Shown here: positions 12,137 through 24,024 of the stretch, piece after piece
How positions within the stretch are numbered: position 1 is the stretch's first letter
Layout: each line of letters begins with the position of its first letter
IMG/VR virus record: IMGVR_UViG_3300047557_000268
Location: 1 to 24,024 of that record
Source: a virus
Direction: 5' to 3' (one strand)
DNA: 24,024 nucleotides
Program-made: the position numbers and the translations under genes
The notes under the pieces: generated by a model
The model's database searches: none
What the model was told of the DNA's origin: nothing
Seen by the model: only the letters and a program-made list of their open reading frames with translations

Positions 12137-13090
12137 ATGGCAACAGTAAACTATACATCTACCTCTTCTTCTTCACTCGGAGGTACCGCTGGTGCTGCTG
12201 GTCTAGTTCAGAAGGCGTATGACCGTCTTCTTGAGTTCGCTCTCCGCTCCGAACCACTTATTCGTTCAGTAGCAGACAAGCGTCCAGCGCGTCAGGCAAT
12301 CCCAGGGTCAACAGTTGTTCTTCAACGCTATGTAGACCTTTCTGTAGCAACCACCGCTCTCACCGAGACCGATGATGTTGATGCAGTATCAATGTCAACC
12401 CCGACCTCTGTCACCATTACTCTTAACGAGTACGGTAACTCGGTCCTCGTAACCCGTGCGTTGGAACTCTTCAGCCTTGCTGATGTAGACCCAGCAATCG
12501 CAAACATCATTGCGTTCAACCTCGCCGATTCTATCGACACAGTTGCAATGACCACTCTTCGCGGTGGAAGCAATGTTATTTACTCGGGTTCAACCGCAAC
12601 CTCAACCGCAACCATCACTTCAACTGCAACCCTCACCTCGGCTAATATCCGTCGTGCGGTTGCTAAGCTCCGTGCCAACAAGTCTGTTGCTCGTAAGGGC
12701 AGCCTCTACTGGGCTGGTATCCACCCAGAGGTTTCACACGACCTTCGTGCCGAGACTGGTGCTGGCGGATGGCGTTTGCCACACGAGTACAACTCGAACG
12801 ATGCAATCTGGGCTGGTGAAATTGGTTCATATGAAGGAGCCTATTTCGTTGAGTCCCCTCGTATGTATGTTGCAACTGATGGTGCGTCTTCCATCAAGGT
12901 TTACCGCACAATCCTTGCAGGACAACAGGCTATGGCCGAGGCAGTGGCAGAAGAGCCACATGTCGTCATCGGACCTGTCGTTGACCGCTTGATGCGTCAC
13001 CGCCCAATGGGCTGGTACGGCGTACTTGGCTTCGCACGCTACCGTGAAGAGGCTTTGTACCGCATCGAGTCTGCTTCATCAATTGCTTAA
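12137..13090 (+). CDS. Major capsid protein (N4-gp56-like, HK97 fold)
   Basis: This 317-residue protein forms the icosahedral shell. The N-terminus is Ser/Thr/Gly-rich and probably flexible. Residues about 20-60 resemble an N-arm and early domain (AYDRLLEFALRSEPLIRSVA). The stretch at about residues 94-140 is the most telling. It has a beta strand, then VLVTRALELFSLADVDP, then a long helix (NIIAFNLADSIDTVAM), a pattern typical of the N4-gp56 family of major capsid proteins. The region near residue 195 (SLYWAGIHPEVSHDLR) is also typical of capsid P/A-domain sequences in that family. The gene follows the scaffold-like gene and has the strongest ribosome-binding site seen here. The codon use is richer in G+C than elsewhere (37 of 60 bases in the row from 12961), as expected of a highly expressed gene. 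Confidence 0.88.
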   Translation: MATVNYTSTSSSSLGGTAGAAGLVQKAYDRLLEFALRSEPLIRSVADKRPARQAIPGSTVVLQRYVDLSVATTALTETDDVDAVSMSTPTSVTITLNEYGNSVLVTRALELFSLADVDPAIANIIAFNLADSIDTVAMTTLRGGSNVIYSGSTATSTATITSTATLTSANIRRAVAKLRANKSVARKGSLYWAGIHPEVSHDLRAETGAGGWRLPHEYNSNDAIWAGEIGSYEGAYFVESPRMYVATDGASSIKVYRTILAGQQAMAEAVAEEPHVVIGPVVDRLMRHRPMGWYGVLGFARYREEALYRIESASSIA

Positions 13091-14626: not shown

Positions 14627-15358
14627 ATGAGCAAACAAGATTCTATCGCCCTCGTCTGGTGCGACAATGGAATGGTAGACGGAAAGTTTATGCAAGGCGT
14701 GACTGATGTACTACTTAAGTCAGGAATAGAATTCGCTTCCACGCTACGCAGTCAGGGCAACCAAATTGCCCGACAGCGACAAACAGTAATTGACTACTGG
14801 TATGACAAGACAGATTTTGAATGGCTCCTATGGGTTGACTCAGATGTGGTCATTAGCCCAGAGAAGTTTAAGTTGCTATGGGATAACAAAGACGCTGAGA
14901 AGCGCCCCATAATAACTGGAATATATTTTACCACGGACAACCCAGAGGAACCTCTGATGATTCCGATGCCAACAATCTTCAACTTTATAGTTGGGGATGA
15001 CGGTGGGTTCGGACTCACTCGGGTTCACCCAATGCCTGTCAACCAGCTTATTAAGGTTGATGCAGCAGGTATGGGCTTTGTGCTTATGCACCGAAGCATA
15101 GTACCCAAGGTTCGTGAAGCATCCGTTGAAGGACAAATCTTCATGGAGATGGGCAGAGGAAGCAAGTTTATCGGAGAAGATATTTTCTTCTTCGCTCTCT
15201 GTGACAAAGCTGAGATTCCTTTGTATGCCCACACCGGAGCACTTGCTCCGCATATGAAGCGATTCTCATTCGACGAACATTACTACCAAGCATTCTTTGG
15301 CAAGCCAAAGGAATCAAAACTTATTACCCCTGAAAAGAAAATCATTAAACCTAGATAG
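14627..15358 (+). CDS. GT-A-type glycosyltransferase 1
   Basis: This 243-residue protein probably transfers a sugar from a nucleotide-sugar donor, acting in the host cytoplasm. The metal-binding DxD motif is in LLWVDSDVVISP (Asp residues about 70-72). A GxGF-like acceptor loop (AAGMGFVLMH) lies near residue 147. A GED motif (near residues 183-185) gives the probable catalytic acid, with a following histidine in ALAPHM (near 209) as possible metal ligand. The last 15 or so residues are Lys-rich. The N-terminus lacks a membrane segment. A good GGGGA ribosome-binding site precedes the ATG. Its motif order is the same as in the glycosyltransferase at 22472, so the two are probably related. The substrate is unknown; virion protein modification is a candidate. 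Confidence 0.78.
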   Translation: MSKQDSIALVWCDNGMVDGKFMQGVTDVLLKSGIEFASTLRSQGNQIARQRQTVIDYWYDKTDFEWLLWVDSDVVISPEKFKLLWDNKDAEKRPIITGIYFTTDNPEEPLMIPMPTIFNFIVGDDGGFGLTRVHPMPVNQLIKVDAAGMGFVLMHRSIVPKVREASVEGQIFMEMGRGSKFIGEDIFFFALCDKAEIPLYAHTGALAPHMKRFSFDEHYYQAFFGKPKESKLITPEKKIIKPR

Positions 15359-16569: not shown

Positions 16570-19179
16570 ATGACAACACGCAAGTACTCATCCCGCTCAC
16601 AGCAGACAACACTGACCGCAGCAGTTACAGCTAATGCTGGTTCAATTACAGTTCAGTCTGCCACCGTTCTACTTGGTGGAACCACCGTACCTAATGGTAC
16701 GACATTTACCGTCGTCATCGACCCTGACACAGCACTCGAAGAAATTGTTGATGTTACCGCCGTCTCCGGTACGGCACCTGCGACTCTTACCATCACCCGT
16801 GGTGTAGAGAACAATGGAACTGGTTCGGCGCACAGTGCTGGTGCAGTTGTTCGCCACATGGCCATTGGTCGTGACTTCCGTGAAGCTAATCTTCACATCG
16901 AAGCAACTGAAGCGTATAACGATGGAACAGGAACACATACTCTTCACGGCATAGCATCGGGCGAAGGTTCCGTAGTGGGAACCGCGAAAGCTCAGACGCT
17001 TACCAACAAGACAATCGGTGCTGGAGGTTTGGCATTCGAGGGTGCAACAGATGATTCATTTGAAACAACACTTACTGTGGCAGACCCAACCGCTGACCGC
17101 ACTATCACCCTTCCAGATGTTAGTGGAAATGTGGTTACTACCGGAGATACTGGAACAGTAACCAACACAATGCTTGCTGGTTCTATTGCCGACACCAAGC
17201 TCAATACCATTTCAACTGCTAGTAAAGTAGCGAACTCTGCTACTACTGCTACCAGCGCAAACACGGCGAGCGCAATTGTAGCTCGTGATTCCAGTGGCAA
17301 TTTTTCTGCCGGAACAATTACTGGTGCTCTTACTGGAAACGCTTCAACTGCAACTACTCTTGCTACCGCGAGAGACTTCCAGATTGTTGGAGATGTAGAG
17401 GCTTCTGCCCAGTCCTTCAATGGCTCCGGCAATGTGACTCTCACCACACAAATTGGAACTGGTGTTATCGTCAACGCAGATGTCAATGCTTCTGCTGCTA
17501 TTGCCTATAGCAAATTAAACCTTGCTGGCTCTATCGTGAATGCTGATGTAGCAACTGGTGCAGCCATTGATAAGACTAAGATTTCTGGAACAGCAATTAC
17601 TGCTGCAGATACTGGCACTGTCACTTCGACAATGATTGCTAACGATACGATTGTCAATGCTGACATAAACTCAGCAGCAGCAATTGCTTACAGCAAGTTA
17701 AATCTTGGTGGAACGATTACCTCGGCTGACTTGGTAGATGGAACAATTGTTAATACCGACATCAGCGCAAGTGCAAACATTGCTCTCAGTAAGTTGGCAA
17801 CTGACCCACTAGCTCGCGCCAACCACACTGGCACTCAAACCGCAAGCACCATTTCTGACTTTGACACTCAAGTGCGAACCAACCGACTTGACCAGATGAC
17901 TGCACCTACAGCATCTGTTTCTATGAACAGCCAGAAGCTAACAAACCTAGCTAACCCAACCAGCAACGGTGATGCGGTTTCTCTTGGATACCTAAACAGT
18001 CAAAAGGGTGTAGCAAACGGTATTGCTGAACTTGATGGAAACGGCTTGGTGCCAACACATCACTTACCAGCACTGGCAATTTCAGAAACTTCTGTTGTCA
18101 ATTCCCAGGCAGCAATGCTTGCATTGACCGCACAAGTTGGTGATGTTGCGGTTAGAACAGATGTCAACAAGTCTTTTATTCTTACAGCCACTCCAGCATC
18201 CACGCTCGGCAACTGGCAAGAACTTCTTACCCCAACAGATTCAGTTCTTTCTGTTGATGGTAACACTGGTGCTGTTAGCCTTTCAGGAACCTATCTTAAC
18301 CGCACCACTGGTCAATTGCTTGGCAATCTTGATGCGAATAACTTCAAGGTTACTGGATTGGGAACTCCAACCAACAACGCAGATGCTGCTACCAAAGCAT
18401 ATGTCGATACAGTGGCTGGCTCTGCTGATGCCGCTGCAGCTAGTGCTGCTGCTGCTGCCACAACTTATGACAACTTTGATGACCGCTACCTAGGTGCTAA
18501 GTCATCTGCTCCAACCCTAGACAATGACGGCAACACGCTTCTTGTCGGTGCAATCTACTGGAACACAGTAACCAATGCTATGTACGCTTGGACTGGAACC
18601 GAGTGGGGAAGCATCTCGTCTACTGCTGATTTGTTCCGCTATCGCTATACAGCCACTGGTGGGGAAACCAGCAAGTCGGGCGTTGACGACAATGGAGTCA
18701 CACTCTCCTATATTCCTGGCAAAGAGCAGGTTTATCTCAATGGTGTATTGCTAGCTCGTGACTCTGATTATGTAGCAAGCAATGGAACTAGCATCTCATC
18801 TCTTGCTGCACTAGCAGCGAATGATGTTCTTGAGATTATCTCGTTCACCTCTTTTGAAATGGCAGATGCTGTTCAGCGTGCGGTGCTAGATGCCAAGGGT
18901 GACATCATCGTAGCCTCTGCTGCGGATACCCCAGGCAAACTATCTGTAGGTACTGACGGCTACTTCTTGCAAGCAGACTCGGCACAAGCCCTTGGAGTCA
19001 AGTGGGCTGCGGTGTCTGGATACAACGCGCCAACCTTAGGCTCAACCTCTATCGCCTCTGGAGCAACAGTAACAACCATCAATGGTTTGACCAAATTGGT
19101 CTCAACAACATACGCATCTCTTGATGCTAACGGATACGAACAAGACATCACGCTCATGAACATCATGGGCGCTTGGTAA
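16570..19179 (+). CDS. Tail fibre protein with Ala/Ser/Thr repeats
   Basis: This 869-residue fibre probably contacts the host surface and carries attachment. Residues about 1-110 form a beta module (DPDTALEEIVDV, LTITRGVENNGTG, HSAGAVVRHM) often seen at the base of phage fibres. The middle is a long repetitive shaft. The unit IVNADINSAAAIAYSKLNL occurs in variant forms near 17467, 17533, 17650 and 17749. Later segments are typical fibre pieces: KLTNLANPTSNGDAVSLGYL, then GLGTPTNNADAATKAYVD, then a domain with ATGGETSKSGVDDNGVTL. The C-terminus (GTDGYFLQADSAQ to LMNIMGAW) matches in style the separate 82-residue protein at 20674. The gene is eight bases after the adaptor stop. Fibre identity is strong; the exact tail type is not. 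Confidence 0.85.
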   Translation: MTTRKYSSRSQQTTLTAAVTANAGSITVQSATVLLGGTTVPNGTTFTVVIDPDTALEEIVDVTAVSGTAPATLTITRGVENNGTGSAHSAGAVVRHMAIGRDFREANLHIEATEAYNDGTGTHTLHGIASGEGSVVGTAKAQTLTNKTIGAGGLAFEGATDDSFETTLTVADPTADRTITLPDVSGNVVTTGDTGTVTNTMLAGSIADTKLNTISTASKVANSATTATSANTASAIVARDSSGNFSAGTITGALTGNASTATTLATARDFQIVGDVEASAQSFNGSGNVTLTTQIGTGVIVNADVNASAAIAYSKLNLAGSIVNADVATGAAIDKTKISGTAITAADTGTVTSTMIANDTIVNADINSAAAIAYSKLNLGGTITSADLVDGTIVNTDISASANIALSKLATDPLARANHTGTQTASTISDFDTQVRTNRLDQMTAPTASVSMNSQKLTNLANPTSNGDAVSLGYLNSQKGVANGIAELDGNGLVPTHHLPALAISETSVVNSQAAMLALTAQVGDVAVRTDVNKSFILTATPASTLGNWQELLTPTDSVLSVDGNTGAVSLSGTYLNRTTGQLLGNLDANNFKVTGLGTPTNNADAATKAYVDTVAGSADAAAASAAAAATTYDNFDDRYLGAKSSAPTLDNDGNTLLVGAIYWNTVTNAMYAWTGTEWGSISSTADLFRYRYTATGGETSKSGVDDNGVTLSYIPGKEQVYLNGVLLARDSDYVASNGTSISSLAALAANDVLEIISFTSFEMADAVQRAVLDAKGDIIVASAADTPGKLSVGTDGYFLQADSAQALGVKWAAVSGYNAPTLGSTSIASGATVTTINGLTKLVSTTYASLDANGYEQDITLMNIMGAW
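17467..17799 (+). repeat. Fibre shaft repeats (imperfect)
   Basis: Four imperfect copies of a segment beginning IVN[AT]D[VI] and ending in a Lys-Leu/Lys-Ile pair lie at about 17467, 17533, 17650 and 17749. Copies one and three are nearly identical at the protein level (AAIAYSKLNL). The copies are variably spaced, unlike a CRISPR array, and they are coding. Confidence 0.65.
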
Positions 19180-19195
19180 CGAAAGGTAGTAACTA

Positions 19196-19498
19196 ATGGC
19201 TACGACAACTAAAGTGCTCGCCAGAACGGCAGCAGCAACCTCAAGCACCACCCTATACACCACACCATCTGCCACTACTGCAGTAGTTACCAACATTGCT
19301 ATCTGCAACCCAACGGCAGCCAGCGTCACTGCATCAATCCTATTGAATGACATTGACCTACTTGGTGCAGTTTCTGTTGCAGCAAACTCTACGATTGTCG
19401 TAGACCTTAAGCAGGTTCTTCCTGCCACCCAGACAATCAAAGGCTTTGCCTCAAGCACATCTGTAGATTTTCACATTAGCGGAGTGGAGATAGCGTAA
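19196..19498 (+). CDS. Small beta-rich fibre-locus protein, copy 1
   Basis: This 100-residue protein is rich in Thr, Ala, Ser and Val, with alternating hydrophobic residues that suggest a beta sandwich (TTLYTTPSATTAVVTNIAIC). Its stop overlaps the next ATG (TAATG). It is clearly related to the 110-residue protein at 20935: both start M-x-T-T-x-KVL, contain TLYT-x-PSAT followed by VV, and end in SxVEIA/GSEIS. It may be a fibre-attached or chaperone-like component for the adjacent repeat protein, an inference from the paired arrangement. Confidence 0.68.
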   Translation: MATTTKVLARTAAATSSTTLYTTPSATTAVVTNIAICNPTAASVTASILLNDIDLLGAVSVAANSTIVVDLKQVLPATQTIKGFASSTSVDFHISGVEIA

Positions 19499-20664
19499 TG
19501 GGATTACAGTCAATTGGCGCAGCCCAACTGGTTGCTGCACAACCTATTGGTACTTCTGCAATTAGGTTTAGCGGTTATTCAAGTGTTGGAGCATATAACT
19601 ATACAACATCTTTACCAGCAGGAAGTTATTTATTAAATCTTTCTTCTGGAAAAGGAAATACGGAATATGTAATATTTGCTTCATCTAATAATAGGTATTA
19701 TTATTTTAATAACAATACAACAAATTTGGTTAAACTAACAACAACAGAATCAAATTTTAATATTTCTCAATATGCAATTTATTCAGCAAAACAAGTATTT
19801 TCTCCACTAGTTGGTGGAAATTTTTATGCTTCTGTATATGGAAATGGACTTTATGTTCTTGGAGGAAATCATCCATCATTAATTACTTCAACAGATGCTA
19901 TAACCTGGACAACAAGAAATCCAAATAATTTAGGTCAAGGAATTACAGCATTAACATATGGTAATGGGGTGTATGTTTTAGGAGATAATAATGGTCAAAT
20001 TCGTACCTCTACTGATGCTATAACTTGGACTTCAAGAACAAATCCTTTGGTTTCTGTTGTTCAAATTAACTGTCTTGCATATGGTAACGGAACATATGTT
20101 GCTGCAGCAGGAAATGGAAATTTAATTACTTCAACTGATGCAATAACTTGGGTAACTAGAAACTCTACTTTTGCTGGTTCTGGAATAAATAGTTTAGTAT
20201 ATGGTTCAGTTTGGCTTGCTGCTGGAAACAATGGAATTATTAGAACTTCTACTGATGCCATAACTTGGACAACAAGATTTAGTCAGTTTGGTACAACAGC
20301 AATTAATTCTGTAACATATGGCAATGGAACATTTGTTGCCGTTGGTGATGGTGGTACACTTCGTTCATCAACCGATGGTTTTACTTGGACTTCAAGAACA
20401 AGTGCAGCGGGAACTAACGCAATGTATTCGGTAACATATAATAATGGACTATTTTTTGCTAGTGGTCTTAACACTTTGTCATCTTCTACAGATGGCATTA
20501 CTTGGGTTACAAGAAATTCATTATTACCAACTGGCAATACAGGATTAACCATTATGTATGGAAATAGTGTTGTTGTTGGTGCAGTAAGTGATTATGTTTC
20601 ATCTTCTGCTATTGAAACTCAAATTGCTTTATACGATACCGCTAGTTCTGCAATTCTAAACTAA
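19498..20664 (+). CDS. AT-rich six-repeat putative receptor-binding protein, copy 1
   Basis: This is a 388-residue protein. Residues about 1-30 (AQPIGTSAIRF) form a short anchor shared with the protein at 21267. Residues about 30-105 form a beta domain with TTTESNFNISQYA. From about residue 130 there are six copies of a motif like STDAITWTTR, spaced 39-41 residues. Each is preceded by a YGNGxYV-type strand. This looks like beta-propeller blades of the sialidase/WD-like kind. The C-terminus (TQIALYDTASSAILN) is also shared. The coding DNA is AT-rich: 11 G/C in the 60-base row from 19681. A receptor-binding or tail-tip role is inferred from position and fold style. Carbohydrate-active activity cannot be judged; I see no catalytic residues. 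Confidence 0.72.
   Translation: MGLQSIGAAQLVAAQPIGTSAIRFSGYSSVGAYNYTTSLPAGSYLLNLSSGKGNTEYVIFASSNNRYYYFNNNTTNLVKLTTTESNFNISQYAIYSAKQVFSPLVGGNFYASVYGNGLYVLGGNHPSLITSTDAITWTTRNPNNLGQGITALTYGNGVYVLGDNNGQIRTSTDAITWTSRTNPLVSVVQINCLAYGNGTYVAAAGNGNLITSTDAITWVTRNSTFAGSGINSLVYGSVWLAAGNNGIIRTSTDAITWTTRFSQFGTTAINSVTYGNGTFVAVGDGGTLRSSTDGFTWTSRTSAAGTNAMYSVTYNNGLFFASGLNTLSSSTDGITWVTRNSLLPTGNTGLTIMYGNSVVVGAVSDYVSSSAIETQIALYDTASSAILN
19885..20517 (+). repeat. Six coding repeats (putative propeller blades), copy 1
   Basis: Motif copies lie at about 19885-19920, 20005-20040, 20128-20163, 20245-20280, 20365-20400 and 20482-20517, with a period of 117-123 bases. The consensus is ST-D-[AG]-x-TW-[TV]-[TS]-R. Codons differ between copies, so these are old repeats under protein-level selection, not a fresh DNA expansion. 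Confidence 0.75.
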
Positions 20665-20673
20665 GGATGATTA

Positions 20674-20922
20674 ATGACTAAATCAAGAACCAATGCAGAT
20701 AATGCTAATGCCGACATTACGGGCGTAACCGCCGGTACCGGCTTGACTGGTGGTGGCTCTAGTGGTGCTGTCACGGTATCCCTTGATACAACCAGCGCCT
20801 ATGTCATCCCAACCCAGACTGGCAACAGTGGTAAGTATCTGACTACCAATGGGACTGCAGCGTCCTGGGGTACAATTACAACAGACCCAACACCAACCGT
20901 GCTCATGCTCGGCGGAATGTAA
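20674..20922 (+). CDS. Short fibre-end-like protein
   Basis: This 82-residue protein consists almost wholly of pieces normally found inside longer fibres: ITGVTAGTGLTGGGSSGAVT, then QTGNSGKYLTTNGTAASWGT. It ends in LMLGGM, comparable in form to the end of the 869-residue fibre (GYFLQADSAQALGVKW, then LMNIMGAW). The start has an AGGATGA ribosome-binding site overlapping the previous stop region. It is either a detached fibre segment left after duplication of the locus or a real small tip or adaptor protein. The base composition matches the phage backbone, not the AT-rich gene before it. Confidence 0.7.
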   Translation: MTKSRTNADNANADITGVTAGTGLTGGGSSGAVTVSLDTTSAYVIPTQTGNSGKYLTTNGTAASWGTITTDPTPTVLMLGGM

Positions 20923-20934
20923 CTAAGGAGAATA

Positions 20935-21267
20935 ATGCCAACAACATATAAAGTACTGGGGCAGTCAGCGCCAGCAAACACCTCGGAAGCAACACTTTAT
21001 ACTGTTCCTTCCGCCACGCAAACGGTAGTGTCTACGATTGTCGTAAGCAACCTTACCGGAACTGCAGCTAACGCTTCAGTCAACATCTGTGTCAATGGTG
21101 CTGCATCATCTAATGCGAACAGTCTACTTAAGACAGCAGCGGTAGATGCTAATGGCAACATTGCGTTCACTCTTGGTATTACTCTTGGTGCTGCGGATGT
21201 AATCCGCGTCACATCTGGTACAGCAAATGCCCTATCCTTTCAAGCGTTCGGAAGCGAGATTTCCTAA
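20935..21267 (+). CDS. Small beta-rich fibre-locus protein, copy 2
   Basis: This 110-residue paralogue of the product at 19196 shares MPTTYKVLGQ-like start, TLYTVPSATQTVV and a GSEIS end. A region of about ten extra residues in the middle (NAIN-like NGAASSNANSLLKTAAVD) makes it longer. It has a good AAGGAG ribosome-binding site. The stop overlaps the ATG of the second repeat protein (TAATG), the same arrangement as in copy 1. The paired coupling suggests that each small protein works with its own large partner. Confidence 0.68.
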   Translation: MPTTYKVLGQSAPANTSEATLYTVPSATQTVVSTIVVSNLTGTAANASVNICVNGAASSNANSLLKTAAVDANGNIAFTLGITLGAADVIRVTSGTANALSFQAFGSEIS

Positions 21268-22454
21268 TGGCAATTAGTCGTTCTAAATCTACCCCAGTTG
21301 CTGCTCAGCCACTGGGCACATCATCTTTAATATTTGGTGGTCTTGCAAATAATGGTGGATATAACTATACCAGTTCGCTTTCAAGTGGCTCTTATTTGTT
21401 GTATTTGAATTCAACAAATACCAGCGCTCTTTATTCAGTAGAGGCACCAAATTCTAGAAGCACTGTTTATATAACACCAGTGTCAAATGGCAACTCCAAT
21501 GTAATTAGAATTACCACAACAGAATCTAATTTTGGAATAGCACAATATGCGGTATGGACTACTCAAGCAAGCGGTCTTACTGGTTCAATATATGGCTCTG
21601 CTGCTGGTAATGGAATTTATATGGTTGGAGCAACTGGTGGACAACTTTCTACTTCTACCGATGGTATTACCTGGACTACAAGAAATGCTGAATTTGGAAC
21701 AACTGCAATTTACGACATTGCTTTTGGCAATGGAGTTTTTGTAGCAGTTGGTGGTTCTGGTGCAACCGGAGTAGTTAGAACCTCTACAGACGGTATTACT
21801 TGGACAAGTAGAACAAACCCACTGCCCGCTGGTGGAAATTTAAGAAGGTGCAAATTTATTGAAGGAAATTTTTATTTATTAAATGAATCACTTTCAAATA
21901 TCGCAACATCAACAGATGGTATAACTTGGACTACAAGAGATTCAAAACAACTATATCCATATGGAATTGCATATGAAAAATCAATTGGTCTATACATGAT
22001 ATGCAACTTTGGAAACGCCGGGCAATACAGCACCTCAACTGATGGCATTACTTGGACTTCAAGGTCTATCTCTGGTGAAGGTGGTTATTTAACAGCAATG
22101 GACGCTGGTAATGGTGTTTTTGTTACCTTTTGGTATGGTTCAAGTGGTTTCTTGAGAACATCAACAAATGGAACTACTTGGACTGCTCAGATTTCTAGCG
22201 CTGGTTATCAGTTTAATGAAATTAAATATGCTAATGGAATCTTTGTTGCTGGCGGGACGAACCTTCTTACAACATCTACAAATGGAGTTAGTTGGACTAC
22301 AAGAAGTACGGCAGGTTTAGTTGCTGCAAATGTAAGAACTATTAGTTTTGGTAATGGTTTATTTATCGCAGGACAAGATTCTGGAAATCTTGTTACAGCG
22401 CCAGTGGCAACACAAATTGCTTTATATGCAACTGCTGGAGCAAGACTAAACTAA
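21267..22454 (+). CDS. AT-rich six-repeat putative receptor-binding protein, copy 2
   Basis: This 395-residue paralogue of the 19498 product has the same layout: an anchor (AAQPLGTSSLIF), a beta domain with TTTESNFGIAQYA, six STDGITWTTR-type motifs and a shared C-terminus (ATQIALYATAGARLN). The last two motifs have diverged to STNGTTW and STNGVSW. Some blades have unusual inserts, for example LRRCKFIEGNFYLLNES near residues 190-210, and this copy contains the two cysteines lacking elsewhere in the motif array. It is AT-rich after the first 60 or so bases, as in copy 1. The blade surfaces differ far more than the motif positions do, which fits receptor-binding diversification. A six-bladed propeller is an inference from the repeat number. 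Confidence 0.72.
   Translation: MAISRSKSTPVAAQPLGTSSLIFGGLANNGGYNYTSSLSSGSYLLYLNSTNTSALYSVEAPNSRSTVYITPVSNGNSNVIRITTTESNFGIAQYAVWTTQASGLTGSIYGSAAGNGIYMVGATGGQLSTSTDGITWTTRNAEFGTTAIYDIAFGNGVFVAVGGSGATGVVRTSTDGITWTSRTNPLPAGGNLRRCKFIEGNFYLLNESLSNIATSTDGITWTTRDSKQLYPYGIAYEKSIGLYMICNFGNAGQYSTSTDGITWTSRSISGEGGYLTAMDAGNGVFVTFWYGSSGFLRTSTNGTTWTAQISSAGYQFNEIKYANGIFVAGGTNLLTTSTNGVSWTTRSTAGLVAANVRTISFGNGLFIAGQDSGNLVTAPVATQIALYATAGARLN
21651..22308 (+). repeat. Six coding repeats (putative propeller blades), copy 2
   Basis: Motif copies end near 21686, 21815, 21940, 22066, 22192 and 22308, spaced about 116-129 bases. Four copies read STDGITW; the last two read STNGTTW and STNGVSW. The count of six equals that of copy 1, supporting a fixed fold rather than drifting repeat number. 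Confidence 0.72.
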
Positions 22455-22471: not shown

Positions 22472-23128
22472 ATGCAACATGTTAATGTAATTATCGCCAC
22501 TCCGGGTCATTCTATGATGACCCCATATGTCAAGTCATTACTTGCCTTGACGGATAGACTAAACCAAGAAGGAAAGACTTGGGCTTGGTCTAGCGAGTAC
22601 TCATCCATGGTATCTGATGCCAGAGAGATGACCCTGAATGGTGATAATCAAAACAGCATTACAGAACAGCGACCCTTCAAAGGTCAACTGACTTACGACA
22701 CAATCCTGTGGATTGATTCGGATATAGCGTTTAGCCCAGATGATGCAATGAAACTTATCAACTCTGATAAGGACATAATCTCCGGCGCTTACCTTCTCTC
22801 TAGCGGAGAAGTAACGGCATACCCAGAGATGCTTAAGGGTGGCTATACCTATGACCAGGTATTAGAAATGAAGGAGCTTACCAAAGTTGCCGGTGTTGGT
22901 TTTGGATTCTTGGCTGTCAAGTCGGGAATCTTTGAACAACTTACCCGACCTTGGTTCCAAGCAGCAATGGCTACCACCGAGGATGGATTTACTTTCCCCC
23001 TTATGGGCGAGGATTTGTCCTGGTGCAAGCGTGTGACTGACCTTGGTTATGATATATGGTTTGACCCAACAGTAAGAGTCACTCATCACAAGATGATGAA
23101 ACTTACTTGGGAAGGAATCAGACCCTAA
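22472..23128 (+). CDS. GT-A-type glycosyltransferase 2
   Basis: This 218-residue enzyme is probably a nucleotide-sugar-dependent glycosyltransferase of the GT-A fold, acting in the cytoplasm. The N-terminus VNVIIATPGHSMM forms the first beta strand and donor loop. The DxD motif lies in LWIDSDIAFSP (about residues 79-85). VAGVGFGFLAVK (near 138-149) matches the loop of glycosyltransferase 1. GED (about 179-181) gives the likely catalytic residue, and VTHHK (near 204-208) a metal-binding histidine. No membrane segment is visible. The strong AAAGGGGA ribosome-binding site sets the start. The stop overlaps the next start (TAATG), so it is coupled to a third glycosyltransferase. Acceptor unknown; fibre or capsid proteins are candidates. 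Confidence 0.82.
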   Translation: MQHVNVIIATPGHSMMTPYVKSLLALTDRLNQEGKTWAWSSEYSSMVSDAREMTLNGDNQNSITEQRPFKGQLTYDTILWIDSDIAFSPDDAMKLINSDKDIISGAYLLSSGEVTAYPEMLKGGYTYDQVLEMKELTKVAGVGFGFLAVKSGIFEQLTRPWFQAAMATTEDGFTFPLMGEDLSWCKRVTDLGYDIWFDPTVRVTHHKMMKLTWEGIRP

Positions 23129-24024
23129 TGTATGAACCCTTTAACTATGTCAAGGATGTCTTTGGTGGCACCGAGTACATGGGTAGGGGTTGGCACCAGC
23201 ACATTGCTGACTCTGTACCTAAGTTCAAGGATTATCTCTCTATCATAATCCCAGGGGTTGTACCGCCTCCGGCTATCTTGTATTCAACAGACAAGAAGAT
23301 TATCTGCTGGATGCACAATACCCCACAGCAATTTGACCCAGATAAGTTAAGAATCCTACAGAACCCTAAGTTCTTAGAGCGCATCAAGTACTTTGTGGTA
23401 CCCAGCGAAGAGCACAAGAAACTTACTCTACAGGAAATTACTATAGACCCAGACTTAATTAAGGTAATACCTAATGCCATAGAGCCATTGCGGTATGACT
23501 ACAACAAGTTTGAGCATCCCAAGGTAGTTAAACTTATCCACACCTCCAGCCCTGATAGAGGGCTTGATGTGTTGCTTAATGCCGTCAGTCTTATTCAAGA
23601 AGACTTTAGACTAGAAATCTACAACAAGTTTAATCCAGACACAGACCCACGGCTCCCCAAGTTTGATAGGCGGATTAAGTTCTATGGGTTTACTCCCAAG
23701 GACACGGTGCGTGAGGCATATGAGAACTCGCACATCCACGCCTATCCATCTACCTACCCTGAGACATTCTGCATCTCTCAGATAGAAGCGATGAGCGCAG
23801 GTTTGCTCTGTGTCACCTCAGACCTTGGTGCAATACCCGAGGTATCTGGTGGCTATACGGCTATGTATCCATATGTAGAAGACCGCATGAAGCACGCAGA
23901 GGTATTTGCCGAACATTTGACTAAGGCAATTCAGACAGTAAAGAAACAGAATTGGTTTCCGCAGGAGCAGATAAAGTATGTTAACTCTGAGTTCTCCTGG
24001 GCTAAAGCCAAAGAGCGTTGGGTT
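23128..24024 (+). CDS. GT-B (GT4-like) glycosyltransferase 3, 3' partial
   Basis: The frame is open from the ATG at 23128, which overlaps the previous stop, to the window edge, giving 299 residues without a stop. It shows GT-B family 4 features. The N-terminal domain contains FGGTEYMGRGWH (residues 12-23), reminiscent of the acceptor-side GG loop, and ICWMHNTP near 59-66. The linker motif is VIPNAIEP (113-120), the counterpart of the usual 'PNGVD'. LIHTSSPDRGLDVLL (136-150) opens the donor domain. STYPETFCISQIEAMSAG (208-225) contains the EX7E pair at Glu212 and Glu220 that binds the nucleotide sugar. The enzyme probably adds a second sugar after glycosyltransferase 2, or builds a short glycan. 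The C-terminus lies beyond the window. Confidence 0.85.
   Translation, partial: MYEPFNYVKDVFGGTEYMGRGWHQHIADSVPKFKDYLSIIIPGVVPPPAILYSTDKKIICWMHNTPQQFDPDKLRILQNPKFLERIKYFVVPSEEHKKLTLQEITIDPDLIKVIPNAIEPLRYDYNKFEHPKVVKLIHTSSPDRGLDVLLNAVSLIQEDFRLEIYNKFNPDTDPRLPKFDRRIKFYGFTPKDTVREAYENSHIHAYPSTYPETFCISQIEAMSAGLLCVTSDLGAIPEVSGGYTAMYPYVEDRMKHAEVFAEHLTKAIQTVKKQNWFPQEQIKYVNSEFSWAKAKERWV

Follow-up and report, generated by a model that had tools for sequence, protein, structure and literature searches.

The window analysed here, the whole 24,024 bases of IMG/VR virus record IMGVR_UViG_3300047557_000268, contains two consecutive modules between positions 16,570 and 22,454, each made up of a fibre-type carrier (F1, F2), a jelly-roll protein of about 100 amino acids (aa; A1, A2) and a coupled tip protein (P1, P2; X in the wider family). 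We read this region as the receptor-binding apparatus of a phage akin to those of freshwater actinobacteria, with two sockets, peptides that act as plugs and bodies that can be exchanged, and give this reading a probability of roughly 0.6. Each socket would combine a carrier bearing a class-specific C-terminal peptide, an A jelly roll whose class matches that peptide, and a translationally coupled tip X, itself composed of a slot-specific N-terminal peptide of about 9-12 residues and an exchangeable body. A most likely links the C-terminal peptide of the carrier to the N-terminal peptide of X, while the body (here an N-terminal domain plus a seven-bladed Asp-box propeller) would contact the host surface.

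The six open reading frames (ORFs) proposed in an initial annotation all exist in the order and spacing given there, with TAATG at the A-P junction of both sets, and corresponding starts, described as 1.74-1.77 kb apart, are separated by 1739 bp (A) and 1769 bp (P). The full tip ORFs span 19498-20664 (P1, 388 aa) and 21267-22454 (P2, 395 aa), and the features of the two modules are the following.

16570..19179, plus strand: F1, tail fibre of 869 aa and carrier of module 1 (ORF; phrog_38058, E 1.9e-109)
About 19147-19176, plus strand: F1 C-terminal peptide ITLMNIMGAW, class-1 type (C-terminal peptide class)
19196..19498, plus strand: A1, jelly-roll protein of 100 aa, class 1 (phrog_1276, tree, model)
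19498..19530, plus strand: P1 N-terminal peptide, residues 1-11, MGLQSIGAAQL, not common to P2
19531..20664, plus strand: P1 tip body (model, start of DNA match, GC content)
About 19558-19794, plus strand: predicted beta-sandwich N-terminal domain of P1 (model)
About 19771-20616, plus strand: predicted seven-bladed Asp-box propeller of P1 (model)
20674..20922, plus strand: F2, mini-carrier of 82 aa (identity and DNA match to the E7 fibre, C-terminal peptide)
20896-20919, plus strand: F2 C-terminal peptide TVLMLGGM, class-2 type (C-terminal peptide class)
20935..21267, plus strand: A2, jelly-roll protein of 110 aa, class 2 (phrog_1276, tree, identity to relative L086)
21267..21296, plus strand: P2 N-terminal peptide, residues 1-10, MAISRSKSTP, slot-2 type (slot profile)
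21297..22454, plus strand: P2 tip body, co-linear with that of P1 (DNA and protein identity, GC content)

The left part of the window carries, in order, genes for terminase, portal, capsid protein and fibre. The capsid protein is 82.7% identical to those of Planktophila phages LanE43AprE7 (E7) and LanE43AprF5 (F5), which were the sole matches to the window in a near-DNA search of annotated phages, and 55% identical to that of Streptomyces phage FlowerPower (subfamily Beephvirinae). Starting at the capsid gene and reaching the fibre N-terminus, syntenic DNA blocks of 66-80% identity connect window and E7, the two phages having the capsid and fibre backbone in common. By these comparisons, the window phage is a relative of phages of freshwater actinobacteria.

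The A proteins give the clearest view of how old the two slots are. Scans of viral contigs yielded 136 stretches related to A1 and 326 related to A2, and the best 80 were kept from each. A1 and A2 are 36% identical (E 3e-11), and both match the profile phrog_1276 over their whole length (E 1.7e-5 and 2.7e-8), as do 42 of 43 A-family members; for some members phrog_693 and phrog_11338, two families of tail fiber proteins, match as well. In a quick tree built on few alignment columns, the family splits into two classes along a branch of 1.44 with a support of 100, apart from two long-branch rows. Class 1 proteins have about 100-105 aa and class 2 proteins 106 aa or more. A1 is 86% identical to the class-1 A of relative L006 and A2 80% identical to the class-2 A of L086; with A1 and A2 thus placed in deeply split classes, each with separate close relatives, the slots must be old, and on this tree the two A classes are ancient.

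Downstream of nearly every A gene lies a closely spaced gene X; of 200 distinct modules, 119 join the two genes by exactly the one-base TAATG overlap of the window. The bodies of X are very diverse (glycine-rich, propeller and others), and conservation centres on the first 9-12 residues, which follow a consensus resembling MGISVFPAA after class 1 and M(A/T)(V/I)S(S/R)(L/V)(K/S) after class 2. Neighbouring pairs of modules were found in 27 distinct cases and in both orders. Across 21 two-slot phages, 39 of 42 N-terminal peptides (first ~9 residues) score better on the profile of the slot that they occupy than on the other, whereas 19 of the 21 pairs of tip bodies can be aligned across slots, usually from residue 10-13 on, so that homologous bodies sit behind non-homologous peptides. 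The likeness between X1 and X2 of the same genome sums to 758 bits against 203 (standard deviation, sd, 73) after shuffling, a value reached in 0 of 10,000 shuffles, and to 583 against 200 (sd 64) when the window is left out, some of the genomes being related to each other. Cross-slot body matches also occur between different genomes.

The two tips of the window follow the same pattern. P1 and P2 are 40% identical over nearly their full length, and at the DNA level the sets resemble each other mainly in a single co-linear stretch (19531-20664 against 21297-22454, 59%), which begins at residue 12 of P1 and residue 11 of P2 and continues to the gene ends; the remaining DNA matches pair repeat with repeat within P, with none in A or the fibre parts. 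The first ten residues are dissimilar (MGLQSIGAAQ in P1, MAISRSKSTP in P2), and the P2 peptide scores 10.9 against 5.5 on the slot profiles, assigning it to the slot-2 type. Because the ~95 residues before the repeats are also 44% identical, the likeness exceeds the repeat motif, and one part of the outcome that the initial annotation had considered fatal to its proposal, similarity limited to that motif, does not apply. Its description of both tips as six-repeat proteins was sound: the Asp-box motif S-x-D-G-x-T-W occurs six times in each. In an AlphaFold2 model of P1, a beta-sandwich N-terminal domain of moderate confidence precedes a propeller in which the six motifs are folded as seven blades. 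Residues 91-374 of this model superpose on virginiamycin B lyase 2z2o (Z 32.1, root-mean-square deviation 2.4 over 277 residues), and YCF48 is also close; from its co-linear alignment to the modelled P1, P2 is predicted to share the propeller architecture. DUF6242 scores above its cut-off in both tips, and PSII_BNR (YCF48) below its own cut-off in P2. Matches of P1 to influenza haemagglutinin in a PDB sequence search (E 4e-4 to 0.09) were judged to reflect chance or composition, since they involve one short stretch and a fold unlike the model. A scan of bacterial genomes with P1 patterns, which are low in sensitivity, returned no relative.

These comparisons strongly suggest an old copying event in which one slot received its propeller body from the other. 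The two-socket layout would equally be kept if both bodies had been captured independently from a common pool of phage propellers, an origin that we consider less likely. The P1 propeller is nearer to those of other phages (48-52%, L166 and L167) than to that of P2 (39%), bodies also move between slots of different genomes, and the P1 and P2 genes are much more AT-rich than their A genes (GC content 34% and 39%, respectively, against 48%), a P-minus-A difference in the lowest 0.5-2% of modules that suggests a foreign origin of the body. However, identities to regular repeats are inflated, and the N-terminal domain, 44% identical between P1 and P2, otherwise gave just one weak match, of L035 to P1 (28%, E 7e-4), with no other instance in a pattern scan of low sensitivity. 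Similar propellers lie within quite different virion-type proteins or glycine-rich domains in L168, L169, L171, L173 (e.g. L169:4686-5993) and L174:1995-4691, with constant flanks in the virion-type proteins (MADKNFKVKNG... before, ...DISGSDVRLR... after), which gives the propeller the look of a mobile domain there. L166:1027-4306, like L167, carries three tandem propeller genes of 360-370 aa with overlapping ends and no A gene detected nearby.

The carriers differ far more than the tips. Across the modules, the protein just upstream of A ranges from 33 to 869 aa. F1 and F2 have phrog_38058 (tail fiber) as their best PHROG match alike, but give no significant pairwise alignment; the fibre-end-like character assigned to the 82 aa F2 in the initial annotation is thus a weaker link, made through the family and through identity to the E7 fibre, not through likeness to F1. 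In Pfam, F1, F2, A1 and A2 had no match at E 0.1 or better. E7 has a single module, with a 559 aa fibre, a class-2 A and several tip-like genes. Its fibre corresponds to the N-terminal part of F1 (61% identity over the first ~240 residues of the E7 fibre) and to F2 (78% over 63 aa, E7 fibre residues 464-526), and ends in TDPTPSVFMLMGA, a class-2 carrier end. Window and E7 match at the DNA level as far as base 17013, within the fibre, and again over 20809-21070, within F2 and A2; the break in synteny falls exactly around module 1. This arrangement strongly suggests that a class-1 module was inserted into the ancestral class-2 fibre gene of an E7-like ancestor, F2 probably being the stranded end of that fibre. 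On the simplest reading, a class-1 fibre end, A1 and a tip would have entered the gene and left F2 behind as the old fibre end, still keeping its own socket.

The initial annotation took one receptor-binding tip per fibre to be usual; in this phage group two slots are not unusual, and E7 has several tip-like genes behind its one A (L267:8318-11647), the first three starting MSISSLKTG, MAIRSLKTG and MAVISIKNK. A second tip-like gene of such kind occurs in 17 of 108 class-2 modules. E7 also holds, directly after its tips, a 46% identical relative of the glycosyltransferase-like gene at 14627-15358 of the window, where glycosyltransferase-like genes flank the fibre region on both sides (the others at 22472-23128 and 23107-24024). 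The capsid protein ORF of the window (12137-13090, 317 aa) matches its E7 counterpart (L267:2298-3497, 399 aa) in two pieces, which implies an internal insertion or deletion in one of them.

A class-specific signal is also present at the other end of the socket. Class-2 carriers end in peptides such as FMLMGA, LMTMGA and LMLGGM (90 of 107) and class-1 carriers in LLLMGAL, IMNIMGAY or ILVLMGAI (45 of 77), as scored by a loose pattern; near-variants such as LMGVL and LLGGM fall outside it. F1, with its IMGAW end, and F2, with its LMLGGM end, each adjoin an A of the same class. Synonymous codon variation in these peptides and widely differing stop-to-start distances to A indicate conservation mostly at the protein level. 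A mere ribosome-binding site for A is ruled out for most carriers on the same grounds, the Leu, Gly and Ala codons all varying. Synonymous variation is likewise present in the N-terminal peptides of class-2 tips. Short carriers of 42-64 aa, often starting MTKAR or MSKAR, occupy the F2 position in several other two-slot phages. L109, L112, L113 and L118 have two carriers before a single A, first a long fibre with the end DVFMMMGA and then a short one.

Several points weigh against the two-socket interpretation. The carrier-end pattern was picked after examples had been seen and has a background of 6.7%. The P1 peptide fits the slot-1 consensus poorly (slot profile 3.2 against -1.2). The codons of class-1 tip peptides show little synonymous variation, and part of their conservation could therefore lie at the DNA level, as a translation start or a recombination anchor. 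The fold of A, finally, as far as the model tells, is no closer to anything at the tail than to capsid cement proteins and a turret. The A1 model, an eight-stranded jelly roll of very high confidence (predicted local confidence, pLDDT, 95.5), comes closest among solved structures to nucleoplasmins, Ena spore appendages, a trimeric phage cement protein and an archaeal virus turret; a PDB sequence search found no relative of A. Many A1-like viral models are uncharacterised phage proteins of 100-110 aa, some of them labelled, as annotated, virion structural protein.

Given this fold, the modules might be capsid decorations (head fibres or cement), with A as a cement-like jelly roll and X as a displayed head fibre, and some PHROG matches of F1 are indeed labelled head decoration. 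The matches of A1 to the cement proteins of KHP40 and Pam1 and to the HFTV1 turret reach Z 7.5-8.7, but values under 8 are common for such folds, tail fiber is the top PHROG assignment of F1 and of F2, families with that annotation are also matched by some A relatives, and the genes lie directly after the fibre; we regard a capsid role as improbable. Slightly less probable again is that A acts outside the virion as an assembly chaperone for X or the fibre. Like many fibre chaperones, A is small, conserved and coupled to a variable gene (T4 gp38, PMC12892980). Yet A-family proteins are labelled virion structural in several phages (labels as annotated), and L172 carries a propeller inside A in a single chain: in two successive genes (L172:2148-3335 and L172:3335-4546), followed by an ordinary A and propeller tip, an Asp-box propeller sits inside the A jelly roll near a loop that is longer in class 2 than in class 1, which indicates that A and a propeller are able to form one unit. 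The initial proposal that a whole three-gene cassette was duplicated in tandem within this lineage and then diverged would explain the similar gene order, spacing and TAATG coupling and the identities of A (36%) and P (40%), but we give it almost no weight, as it is contradicted by the A tree, with A1 and A2 in two old classes that each have close separate relatives, and by a DNA match limited to the P bodies and absent from A and F, and as the F1 and F2 ends differ in class, their sequences do not align and the two-slot layout recurs in many relatives in both orders. What stands of that proposal is two complete, diverged sets; separate nearest relatives without a shared flank, which it had named as contrary evidence, are found for A and the fibre part, not for the tips.

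Docking of the peptides to A would account for their class-specific conservation, and receptor binding by the tips is suggested by their position, variability and coupling to the fibre, together with the published variable island of E7 and F5. For the two sets, first proposed to give dual host range, a heteromeric tip or an exchangeable spare, a dual-tip reading fits best, both tips presumably being present together on the virion. A more general and more tentative idea, which we hold somewhat less likely than its opposite, is an undescribed plug-and-socket code: a jelly-roll adaptor family of at least two classes would read the fibre C-terminal peptide and the tip N-terminal peptide, tips of any fold would move between phages and sockets by keeping a plug of about 10 residues, and each virion would bear two independently exchangeable tips. 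If the peptides are docking plugs, tip genes would become recognisable and assignable to sockets from sequence alone in many metagenomic phages, and the junction of tip exchange would be defined to within a few codons. The acI actinobacteria rank among the most abundant freshwater bacteria and their phages were first cultured only recently. With E7 and F5 in culture on host LanE-43, the plug-and-socket idea is directly testable.

The nearest published parallels are adapter or anchor-branch receptor-binding systems of the podophages K1-5/SP6, G7C, KP32 and KP34 (PMC6872550). Each of these phages has two receptor-binding proteins (RBPs). In the free ones, a conserved peptide of just 7-29 residues stands at the start and the bodies behind it have been swapped; truncated partners occur (PMC6872550). 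The tip family of the window shows the same short conserved start and swapped bodies, P1 itself fitting weakly. However, in those phages a T4 gp10-like domain, carried by the first RBP or the adapter, serves as the socket (PMC6872550), whereas here a separate ~100 aa jelly roll of two classes lies between tip and carrier, and the carriers have class-specific C-terminal peptides. No gp10-like domain was among the Pfam matches (E 0.1 or better; F1, F2, A1, A2) or the listed A1 fold matches, with no dedicated remote search made, and as this socket was not detected we place the window beside these systems as a variant, not a member. The gp37-gp38 tip of the T2/S16 type also has its tip as a separate protein, with a gene that comes after that of the fibre and an N-terminus that must match the fibre end, but it lacks an intermediate jelly roll and forms one tip, not two (PMC12892980). 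Many slot partners in relatives of the window are glycine-rich like gp38; gp38 is a glycine-rich sandwich (PMC12892980), whereas the tips of the window are predicted propellers, P1 being modelled as beta-sandwich plus propeller without a body of polyglycine helices, and neither P1 nor P2 being glycine-rich of that kind. For the corresponding region of E7 and F5, a hypervariable island with a possible link to host recognition has been reported (PMC10202952), and from its description we infer that the island comprises these genes. It lies at the same place after the same fibre N-terminus and has, in E7, a class-2 carrier end, an A and several tip genes, but E7 has one socket and the window two. 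A search of the open-access literature found no paper that reports Asp-box propellers from phage tails. The tips share fold and repeat motif with seven-bladed Asp-box propellers and their relatives, such as YCF48 and virginiamycin B lyase, the difference being that in the window the propeller forms the body encoded by a coupled phage gene.

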